From positions 1 to 26,273 of IMG/VR virus record IMGVR_UViG_3300046002_005059: a DNA stretch of 26,273 nucleotides. One strand, written 5' to 3'. Positions 2,972 through 9,552 of this stretch are shown here, piece by piece. The notes under the pieces were generated by a model. The model ran no database searches and had not been told where the DNA came from. It saw nothing but the letters and a program-made list of their open reading frames with translations. A program made the translations under genes and the position numbers. This stretch comes from a virus. Numbering within the stretch: position 1 is the stretch's first letter; the number at the start of each line of letters is the position of its first letter.

Positions 2972-2999
2972 GTAGGCCTAGTGTAATGACTAGGCTTAC
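2972..2999 (+). terminator. Hairpin fused to promoter P8 box
   Basis: GTAGGCCTAGT (2972-2982) pairs over 11 positions (one G-T) with ACTAGGCTTAC (2989-2999), loop GTAATG. The 3' arm is the upstream box of P8. No strong T-run follows, so termination is a guess; an inverted-repeat protein site is the alternative. Confidence 0.55.
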
Positions 3000-3022
3000 A
3001 TTACAATACATTGTATATTTAA
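2990..3022 (+). promoter_or_regulatory. Bipartite cassette promoter P8 (for 3072 gene)
   Basis: CTAGGCTTACA at 2990-3000, 12 nt, GTATATTTAA at 3013-3022. The box forms the right arm of the hairpin at 2972-2999. Confidence 0.8.
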
Positions 3023-3071
3023 ATTATAAGAAAATAAATAATTAATTTAAACAATTTAAAACACAACTACT

Positions 3072-3305
3072 ATGTCAAAATTTCAAATCAAATCAATGTT
3101 CGAGCAAATCGCAACACAAGTATTTACAATGAAAGATGTAAACGCTGCTAAAACGTTTATTAATGAGTTCGTTAATGATAAAGACATTAATGACATTGAT
3201 AAAAAAGTAATATTAAATAACATCAAAGACATTAAACACATTAACAAGCTTCAGACATATATTTGTAATTCATTACTTAAATATGAAGGAATGAGTGTTA
3301 ATTAA
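3072..3305 (+). CDS. Hypothetical helical protein, 77 aa
   Basis: A 77-residue, largely alpha-helical soluble protein (begins MSKFQIKSMFEQIATQVF), roughly neutral, with many Lys, Asp and Ile/Asn residues. No domain recognised. It is preceded by P8 and a long leader of the shared type ending AAAACACAACTACT, giving an untranslated region of about 50 nt. The stop is TAA; P9 begins a few bases later. A single-gene cassette by arrangement. Confidence 0.75.
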   Translation: MSKFQIKSMFEQIATQVFTMKDVNAAKTFINEFVNDKDINDIDKKVILNNIKDIKHINKLQTYICNSLLKYEGMSVN

Positions 3306-3309
3306 AACA

Positions 3310-3342
3310 TTAGGATTACAAAACATATTAATGTATATTTAA
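3310..3342 (+). promoter_or_regulatory. Bipartite cassette promoter P9 (for 3391 gene)
   Basis: TTAGGATTACA at 3310-3320, 12 nt, GTATATTTAA at 3333-3342. It matches the commonest form of the box. Confidence 0.8.
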
Positions 3343-3390
3343 ACAATTAAAAGATAAATAAATAATATAAACAATTAAAAACACACAATT

Positions 3391-3783
3391 ATGACAAATC
3401 AAACATTAGATCAATTCATCGCTCAAGAATTAAAAAACGAAGTAAAACAATTAGGACGCAAAGTAGATCCGAACAGTGAACGTCAGAAACGATTAGCTGA
3501 GTTAGCAACGAAACGTGAAAGCGGTGATTTTAAACGCGGCCGACCAATAAACGGTGAATCAGCACGTCAAGCAAGATTAGCAGATTTAAATGAACGTCGT
3601 GAAAGCGGTGAATTAAGAAAAGGTCGTCCTGTATCAGGTGACAGTGAACGTCAAAAACGATTAGCAGAACGTGAAGCGAAAGCAGCAGCGGGCGTAGAAG
3701 TAAAACGCGGACGACCAGCAGCGTCTAAAGTAGTAACTGAAGTAGTAGTAACAAGTGATGTGATTGATTCAGAAGATAAGTAG
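3391..3783 (+). CDS. AT-hook-type repeat DNA-binding protein, 130 aa
   Basis: After an N-terminal helix (residues 1-20), the protein carries units of about 32 residues with the pattern GRP-x-x-x-x-S-x-RQ-x-RLA. The basic cores are LGRKVDP (about 22-28), KRGRPIN (48-54), RKGRPVS (80-86) and KRGRPAA (104-110). The R-G-R-P core flanked by Lys/Arg is the AT-hook motif, which binds the minor groove of AT-rich DNA; the first unit has lost the proline core. The linkers are charged helices. The tail is acidic. A likely role is binding the phage's own AT-rich DNA or host DNA, as nucleoid-like or transcription factors do. Its codons are GC-richer than the neighbours' because of Arg, Ala and Gly. It is transcribed from P9. 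Confidence 0.78.
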   Translation: MTNQTLDQFIAQELKNEVKQLGRKVDPNSERQKRLAELATKRESGDFKRGRPINGESARQARLADLNERRESGELRKGRPVSGDSERQKRLAEREAKAAAGVEVKRGRPAASKVVTEVVVTSDVIDSEDK

Positions 3784-3796
3784 TGTTGTGTATAGT

Positions 3797-3824
3797 GTAA
3801 GTCTAATAGTAATGTTAGGCTTAC
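3797..3824 (+). terminator. Hairpin fused to promoter P10 box
   Basis: GTAAGTCTAA (3797-3806) pairs with TTAGGCTTAC (3815-3824), ten positions with one G-T, loop TAGTAATG. It is followed by TTATTTTT, so it could terminate the 3391 transcript while its 3' arm acts as the P10 box. Confidence 0.6.
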
Positions 3825-3847
3825 ATTATTTTTAAATGTATATTTAA
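3815..3847 (+). promoter_or_regulatory. Bipartite cassette promoter P10 (for 3894 gene)
   Basis: TTAGGCTTACA at 3815-3825, 12 nt, GTATATTTAA at 3838-3847. The box forms the right arm of the hairpin at 3797-3824. Confidence 0.8.
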
Positions 3848-3893
3848 TTAACTTAAAAATAAATAATTAATATAAACTTAAAACACAACGACT

Positions 3894-4043
3894 ATGAAAA
3901 CAATCACAATTAATGTAAATCAAGAACAACTAGACATGATTAAACAATTATTAAATTTAGAAGATGATGTAACTGATAGTTTCATTATACAAGAATTCAT
4001 AATTGAGAATACACGTATAGATGAAGACGGTGACGAGTTTTAA
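3894..4043 (+). CDS. Small acidic protein, 49 aa
   Basis: ATG 3894 to TAA 4041-4043. The product begins with an alternating strand (KTITINVN) followed by a helix (QEQLDMIKQLL) and a second helix, then an acidic tail ending DEDGDEF. The strand-helix-helix order is compatible with a very small ribbon-helix-helix fold, but no diagnostic residues confirm it. It lies between P10 and P11 with the shared leader ending AAAACACAACGACT, so it is a credible cassette gene despite its size. Confidence 0.65.
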   Translation: MKTITINVNQEQLDMIKQLLNLEDDVTDSFIIQEFIIENTRIDEDGDEF

Positions 4044-4056
4044 ATAATGATAATAA

Positions 4057-4084
4057 GTAGTTCTAACAGTAATGTTAGGACTAC
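4057..4084 (+). terminator. Hairpin fused to promoter P11 box
   Basis: GTAGTTCTAA (4057-4066) pairs with TTAGGACTAC (4075-4084), ten positions with one G-T, loop CAGTAATG. Compared with the P10 hairpin, both arms changed together (AG with CT there, GT with AC here). No T-run follows. Confidence 0.55.
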
Positions 4085-4107
4085 ATTATATCAAAACGTA
4101 TATTTAA
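4075..4107 (+). promoter_or_regulatory. Bipartite cassette promoter P11 (for 4152 gene)
   Basis: TTAGGACTACA at 4075-4085, 12 nt, GTATATTTAA at 4098-4107. The box forms the right arm of the hairpin at 4057-4084. Confidence 0.8.
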
Positions 4108-4151: not shown

Positions 4152-4319
4152 ATGACAGTAAAAGAATTAATTGACAGATTAAGTAAGTATGATGACAATG
4201 TAATAGTATGTCTTAACATAGACAGAGAGTCAGGAACAATAGGATCAGAGTTAGAAATGATAGATGATGAAGGTATTAATTTTGATGAGCCATGTCTTAT
4301 ATTATCTGGTAAAGAGTAA
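4152..4319 (+). CDS. Small conserved-type phage protein, 55 aa
   Basis: The frame is open from an ATG at 4047, but promoter P11 (4075-4107) lies inside that extension, and ATG 4152 follows the shared leader ending AAAACAACTAACT, so I start at 4152. The protein begins MTVKELIDRLSKYDDNVIV, a helix followed by a strand. This resembles a widespread group of small phage proteins of unknown function that begin with a KELIxxLxKxDPxxxV pattern. The second half is acidic and beta-rich. No biochemical role can be read from it. Confidence 0.7.
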   Translation: MTVKELIDRLSKYDDNVIVCLNIDRESGTIGSELEMIDDEGINFDEPCLILSGKE

Positions 4320-5547: not shown

Positions 5548-5576
5548 AAAGCCGGTCTCTTCAGATCGGCTTTTTT
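5548..5576 (+). terminator. Rho-independent terminator
   Basis: GCCGGTCT/AGATCGGC (5551-5558 and 5563-5570), loop CTTC, preceded by AAA and followed by six T. It is the strongest terminator here. Its T-run ends two bases before promoter P12. Confidence 0.9.
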
Positions 5577-8847: not shown

Positions 8848-9552
8848 ATGTCCAAAAATTATTTCACACAAGAAACTGAAGATGCTATTGTAGCTTATAA
8901 TACTAGTATTGATTTTACTGAAAGAAGTAAAATATATGATGATAAAATTCATTATGCTTTTTTTAAATTAACTCAAAATATTATACATACATTTAAATTT
9001 TACTATACTGAAGTAGAAAATATAGAAGACTTACAACATGAGGTAATTATATTCTTACTATCTAAGATACATAAGTTTGATCCATCCAGAGGAGCAAAAG
9101 CGTATTCATATTTTGGGACAATTGTAAAACGTTGGTTGATTACATATAATGATGTAAATTACAAAAAACGCGTTAATTCATCTCCTGTATCTGTATTAGA
9201 AGAAGATAACTCACACTCTTACGTAATAGAAGAAAATAATTCACCCTCAGATAAATTACCTAATAGTGATAAAATTTCATTATTCATAGATATGTACATA
9301 GAATATTGCACTAACAATATATATACTTTGTTTCCTAAAGACATTGATGCTAAAATAGCAGATGCCATTCTTGAATTATTTAGAAAACGAGAAAATTTAG
9401 ATATATTTAATAAAAAAGCACTATACATATATATTAGAGAAATGGTAGATGTTAAAACACCAAAAATAACTAAAATAGCTGATAAATTATATGATATATA
9501 TAGAAAAAACTATATATTTTATTTAGAAAACGGATATATAAAATTTCAATAG
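8848..9552 (+). CDS. Late-transcription sigma factor, gp55-like, 234 aa
   Basis: Residues about 58-108 form a sigma region 2: NIEDLQHEVIIFLLSKI, then FDPSRGAKAYSYFGTIVKRWL, the pattern DLxQE...FDPxxGxxAxxYF used to bind the RNA polymerase clamp and melt the -10 element. Upstream are helices; downstream is a charged linker (about 109-140) and a C-terminal helical region without a clear region 4. This layout fits T4 gp55 (185 aa), the sigma that works with a sliding clamp to transcribe late genes from TATAAATA promoters; at 234 aa it is longer. An ordinary ECF sigma is less likely because region 4 is not evident. It lies directly before the structural block it probably switches on. Confidence 0.82.
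   Translation: MSKNYFTQETEDAIVAYNTSIDFTERSKIYDDKIHYAFFKLTQNIIHTFKFYYTEVENIEDLQHEVIIFLLSKIHKFDPSRGAKAYSYFGTIVKRWLITYNDVNYKKRVNSSPVSVLEEDNSHSYVIEENNSPSDKLPNSDKISLFIDMYIEYCTNNIYTLFPKDIDAKIADAILELFRKRENLDIFNKKALYIYIREMVDVKTPKITKIADKLYDIYRKNYIFYLENGYIKFQ

Follow-up and report, generated by a model that had tools for sequence, protein, structure and literature searches.

The IMG/VR viral stretch analyzed here (26,273 nt, in the following the window) carries a T4-type baseplate gene. Compared by its 616-aa baseplate protein, the window is closest, among named phages, to Flavobacterium phage immuto and Microcystis phage Mel-JY01 (46% identity). The promoter and hairpin element described below belongs to a Flavobacterium phage-related family of uncultured phages. 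Numerous small ORFs on the plus strand occupy the first 5.6 kb of the window. Further downstream, a protein with Sigma-70 region 2 is encoded at 8848-9552 and may serve this phage group as its late sigma factor (gp55-like). The region at 1973-2300 contains a tRNA that Rfam detects with 35.2 bits and ARAGORN misses, and then approximately 250 nt of noncoding sequence, which has 83% identity over 64 nt to a counterpart in L015 and L016 that is likewise located 3' of a tRNA-like sequence. This noncoding part gave no match in Rfam and is possibly an undescribed structured RNA.

The 31-nt promoter and its neighboring genes

The intergenic gaps of the window contain 11 exact copies of a promoter, TAGGNYTACA-N12-GTATATTTA, all of them 31 nt long and on the plus strand, with 0 expected by chance. 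A twelfth, less perfect copy is positioned at 1799. There was no match to this promoter on the minus strand of the window, and a divergent promoter on the opposite strand was rejected; sigma70 consensus sites are no more frequent in the window than in shuffled sequences. The copies relevant here are P8 (2991-3021) and P10 (3816-3846), both with the sequence TAGGCTTACA-N12-GTATATTTA, P11 (4076-4106; TAGGACTACA-N12-GTATATTTA), P9 (3311-3341), and P12 (5579-5609). At window positions 234, 573, 802, 1074, and 2507, and at related promoters, the upstream gene ends on the TAG of the promoter, which thus also acts as its stop codon; this is another kind of overlap within the element.

Many related viral contigs carry the same promoter; its copies cluster on one strand, with as many as 29 per contig, and the control count in those contigs was 0. 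Neither Flavobacterium phage immuto nor Mel-JY01 gave a match to it, so that the element is so far available from uncultured phages only. A scan of 84,980 bacterial and archaeal genomes returned only seven matches, single and scattered and taken as chance, and the promoter thus looks phage-specific.

P8 is preceded by a plus-strand ORF of 125 aa (2580-2957), which had no match in Pfam and for which a protein search of viral contigs found no relative. The gene before P10 (3391-3783, plus strand) encodes a protein with KRGRP repeats (AT-hook-like). This protein matched neither Pfam nor PHROG and gave no match in named phages; a search with an alignment of eight relatives identified 54 viral loci, and relatives are present in more than 50 viral contigs. 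Upstream of P11 lies a plus-strand ORF of 49 aa (3894-4043), for which a protein search found no relatives, and P11 itself would drive the ORF at 4152-4319 on the same strand. Because the ORFs upstream of P8 and P11 have no relatives, there are no orthologous gene ends to compare for the hairpins at these two sites.

Hairpins formed by the promoter box

Only at P8, P10, and P11 in the window is the box TAGGNYTACA complementary to the stretch that separates it from the upstream stop codon. As the initial annotation had noticed, the box forms one arm of a hairpin at these sites, and it is the 3' arm in all three. The P8 hairpin (2972-3000, plus strand) has 11 pairs and the loop GTAATG, with the box at 2991-3000 as its 3' arm and a predicted stability of -18.2 kcal/mol (z -5.7). 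At P10, the hairpin (3792-3829, plus strand) has 16-17 pairs and the loop GTAA, the box at 3816-3825 is its 3' arm, and TTTTTAAAT follows; its RNA folds range from -16.1 to -19.3 kcal/mol (z -6.5 to -6.7). The P11 hairpin (4057-4084, plus strand) has 12 pairs and the loop GTAA, with the box at 4076-4085 as its 3' arm (-16.3 kcal/mol, z -5.7). A stem of 10-11 bp with a GTAATG-containing loop, originally described for all three sites, is what we find at P8, but not at P10 or P11, where GTAATG is partly paired and the length of the stem had been understated. The arms do change together as reported, with GTAAG opposite CTTAC at P10 and GTAGT opposite ACTAC at P11; at P8, GTAGG pairs with CTTAC through one G-U.

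None of 200 shuffles gave an RNA fold as stable as the observed one at any of the three sites, and at each of them the upstream-to-box pairing outscored every one of 200 dinucleotide shuffles of the respective upstream sequence (P ≤ 1/201). For the other nine promoter sites tested in the window, this pairing had P ≥ 0.22. No other 37-nt fold on either strand of the window is as stable as those of P8, P10, and P11, among which P8 ranks first. No Rfam family was found at these hairpins. The 86-nt repeat family D1 holds P8, P10, and P11 together with P9, which is hairpin-free in the fold tests; given this one shared repeat family, P8, P10, and P11 look like copies of a single cassette. A competing helix, TAATG...CATTA, at 2983-3006, 3810-3829, and 4070-4089 would place the box in a loop.

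At 17 of 199 non-redundant promoter copies (approximately 9%), the box contributes the 3' arm to a strong hairpin. In 16 of these 17, the distance from the stop codon to the box is 20-44 nt, which leaves room for the 5' arm and can account for the unmerged stop codon at hairpin promoters; the exception, L032:3236, is A+T-rich, and its hairpin may be a chance occurrence. The initial annotation had remarked on the separation of stop codon and box at three sites, and this proved to be general: the upstream stop codon is merged into TAGG in 68 of 141 hairpin-free promoters versus 0 of 17 hairpin promoters. An unmerged stop codon does not imply a hairpin, as is evident from P9 (3311), which is unmerged and hairpin-free. 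P12 (5579) also has an unmerged stop codon and, instead of a box hairpin, an ordinary intrinsic terminator immediately upstream (5548-5573, plus strand), which does not overlap with the promoter.

A plain terminator scan picks both the P10 hairpin and the terminator ending directly before P12, and hairpins with T-rich tails are found at many promoters, either overlapping the box or just upstream of it. The T count in the 8 nt following the box is 4.4 at promoters with a hairpin versus 2.6 at those without (P = 1e-4). A U-tract is present at P10 and most related sites, weak at P11 (ATTATATC), and poor at P8 (ATTACAATACATTG). The P10 hairpin is the best terminator candidate. A function as terminator appears convincing at P10, and weaker at P8, where the hairpin would end the transcript of the 125-aa ORF, and at P11, because the U-tracts of these two are poor.

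Strong G+C-rich box stems without a U-tract were observed at L069:2811, L052:2729, L053:2366, and L091:1177, some of which extend through the spacer. Judged by sequence, the hairpins of L069, L052, and L091 and one hairpin of L053 are not canonical terminators, and another 3'-end role is possible at P8, P11, L091, L069, and L052. There is also a second register, in which a hairpin resembling a terminator has TAGG in its 5' arm and ends just before TATATTTA, for example GGGGTTAGGCTTACCTAACCCCTTATTATATATTTA. The second-register sites are L111:1091, L119:4726(-), L115:5648(-), G004:C1:20143, and G011:C1:18568, and some of them may be chance.

Association with the upstream gene and covariation of the arms

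The KRGRP gene before P10 allows a comparison of orthologous gene ends. A strong hairpin (for example, GAGGGCGAATGAAAGTCATTCGCCCTTT in L050 and AAGAGCGCTTCGTAATGAAGCGCTTTTTG in L075) is present at 33 of the 51 KRGRP gene ends examined, most of them without this promoter nearby, and classical terminators such as GAGCGCTTCGTAATGAAGCGCTTTTTG are found at orthologous KRGRP gene ends. Of 14 cases with the 31-nt promoter no more than 100 nt from the KRGRP gene end, 13 have the box overlapping the stem, a tally that admits a few one-base promoter variants; in the fourteenth case, L049, the promoter box begins in the T-tract of the terminator. An overlapping hairpin is present at 8 of 10 KRGRP-following promoters versus 9 of 189 others (Fisher P = 1.9e-8). 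The two exceptions are L049, with its adjacent terminator, and L050, which has a longer imperfect hairpin.

An arrangement like that at P10 follows the orthologous KRGRP gene in L037 (GGGTAGTCCGTTAGGACTACCTTATTTTATCTCATATATTTA), L040, L046 (GGGTGAGTCGATAGGCTCACCCATTTTTTTACATTATATTTA), L057, L059, L065, L068, and L073. From TAGG to the end of TATATTTA, the KRGRP elements span 31 nt, the same as in hairpin-free promoters. Different genes are positioned directly downstream of the KRGRP element in L037 and L040, with the hairpin retained in both. Conversely, the orthologues in L091 and L092 of the ORF that follows P11 are preceded by a hairpin-free promoter. As judged from this comparison, the hairpin belongs to the upstream gene.

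In an alignment of eight-pair arms from 16 sites, 96% of cells are paired, and at five of the eight pairs both partners have changed. Covariation was scored at 0.65 versus 0.29 in shuffled alignments, of which 0 of 500 reach the observed value, and slid registers score at most 0.14. Pairing is broken when arms are swapped between sites: 0 of 20,000 permutations of all arms reach the observed total, and 2 of 20,000 do so for the KRGRP-following sites. Some of these covariation sets were partly picked for having a hairpin, a selection that is avoided, with fewer sites, in the tally of KRGRP gene ends and in a test of the box ending. In the latter, which involved no selection on hairpins, a hairpin is present in 8 of 11 boxes ending in TACC versus 4 of 123 TACA boxes (P = 4e-8), and the TACC ending adds a G-C pair to the stem. 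Covariation in related contigs, the absence of which had been named initially among the findings that would refute the proposal, is thus present.

Among the 20 non-Watson-Crick cells in the covariation alignment, 15 are G-U, a count to be read with caution since the scoring used for hairpin detection is somewhat tolerant of G-U; seven sites share a G-U position. The G-U pairs and the varied arm sequences suggest RNA pairing rather than a dimer site.

Proposed function, alternatives, and known systems

Comparison supports the earlier suggestion that one transcript may end and the next begin at the element: alongside the hairpin itself, the link to the upstream gene end, the covariation as RNA, and the constant promoter spacing of 31 nt are established at the level of sequence, and the spacer is T-enriched. 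We consider it probable that the hairpins are intrinsic transcription terminators superimposed on the promoter of the next gene. As double-stranded DNA, the TAGGNNNACN box would be the upstream element of a phage-specific promoter; as RNA, it would be the 3' arm of the stem, with the 5' arm located between the upstream stop codon and the box, and the T-rich 12-nt spacer of the promoter would double as the U-tract. RNA polymerase arriving from the upstream gene would then stop within the spacer, and a new transcript would begin approximately 35 nt past the first position of the box. If TATATTTA is placed at -12 to -5, as is the -7 box in flavobacteria (PMC9723704), the predicted position of the box is approximately -35 to -26, and upstream transcripts would be expected to end near -20 relative to the next start. 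We infer termination and initiation, as well as their strength at P8 and P11, from these features.

An unlikely alternative is that the hairpin is an mRNA 3'-end, processing, or stability element, acting as an exonuclease barrier or nuclease site, with termination absent or factor-dependent and read-through normal. Hairpins at the 3' ends of messages stabilize phage mRNAs, and the stems at P8, P11, L091, L069, and L052 are strong and lack a good U-tract. However, T residues are enriched right after the stem at most sites, and orthologous gene ends carry classical terminators like GAGCGCTTCGTAATGAAGCGCTTTTTG. We regard it as very unlikely that the hairpin is a regulatory hairpin or attenuator of the downstream gene, in which the TAATG...CATTA helix and the box hairpin would switch read-through. 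A competing TAATGT-box-ACATTA helix is possible at P10 and P11, as is one of 5 bp at P8, but it was not seen in related loci, where loops and flanks differ, and the hairpin stays with the upstream gene even though the downstream genes differ, as in L037 and L040.

The initial annotation had alternatively envisaged a dimeric regulator on an inverted repeat; such a DNA-binding protein would control a subset of promoters. In its favor, the box is part of an inverted repeat made up of the two arms, and P8, P10, and P11 are neighbors. On the other hand, the two half-sites are not both conserved: the 5' arm varies in sequence with the 3' arm, pairing alone is conserved, and the second half-site is missing at most promoters. 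The prevalence of G-U, even if somewhat favored by the scoring, suits RNA rather than a DNA palindrome. We rejected such an operator as highly improbable. A hairpin promoter of the N4 virion-polymerase type, an extruded DNA structure recognized by the polymerase, would fit a box within a hairpin arm, but was dismissed as next to impossible given that the hairpin is present at only 17 of 199 promoters, with approximately 91% of the family hairpin-free at the box, and that the box is conserved as sequence.

As a promoter, the element can be compared with the Bacteroidetes sigma-A type, the -7 box of which is TAnnTTTG (PMC9723704, PMC7366714). By comparison, TATATTTA retains TA at positions 1-2 and TTT at positions 5-7 and differs in the last base; unlike the Bacteroidetes sigma-A promoter, the present one has a long, strongly conserved TAGGNYTACA box at a constant distance. 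As a terminator, the element resembles intrinsic (Rho-independent) terminators in its stable RNA hairpin at the gene end, followed by a T-rich stretch at most sites, and in pairing that is kept by compensatory change. It differs from them in that the 3' arm is restricted by promoter sequence and that the U-tract falls within the 12-nt spacer and is poor in several cases.

Should terminators indeed be superimposed on promoters in these phages, a terminated polymerase would be located between the promoter boxes. In vitro, single-molecule work on post-termination recycling revealed that a terminator near a promoter lets polymerase restart nearby (PMC6978380, PMC6978322). That phages would place terminators on promoters for such a restart is a proposal. 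It is doubtful, but conceivable, that the element constitutes a polymerase relay, in which the terminated polymerase rebinds a sigma factor and restarts at once. If true, successive small genes would be separate messages made by a handed-over polymerase, and selection for the handover would explain why the box following KRGRP genes is positioned inside the terminator, not beside it (13 of 14).

Arbiol et al. reportedly described, in 2010, PeSL (promoter early stem-loop) cassettes in the T4-type phages RB49 and phi1. Of the known systems, these come closest: they reportedly couple a strong promoter with a terminator stem-loop in the early region and mediate recombination and mini-circles. The present element is similar in that it couples a promoter with a putative terminator stem-loop and recurs between the small genes of a phage whose baseplate is T4-like, and in that the copies are related in sequence. 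In the gaps of the window, promoter and putative terminator overlap at P8, P10, and P11 and are adjacent at P12, and the region of P8-P12 may be early, as judged from its small ORFs. The present element differs from PeSL cassettes in that the upstream box of the promoter is itself the 3' arm of the stem, and in that the promoter is of a Bacteroidetes-like type rather than a sigma70-like early promoter.

We found no description of a phage promoter box inside a terminator stem in the open literature, of which our coverage was incomplete. Adjoining promoters and terminators are ordinary; the unusual part is the shared 10-nt arm, recurrent across phage contigs and kept by covariation. The element provides a clear natural example in which two selective constraints, as promoter DNA and as putative terminator RNA, act on the same 10 nt, with the covariation readable across contigs. 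It could serve as a compact terminator-promoter part for AT-rich Bacteroidetes hosts, and, as a defined element, it permits a test of a current question from single-molecule work, of whether, in nature, a polymerase that has terminated starts again from a promoter nearby.
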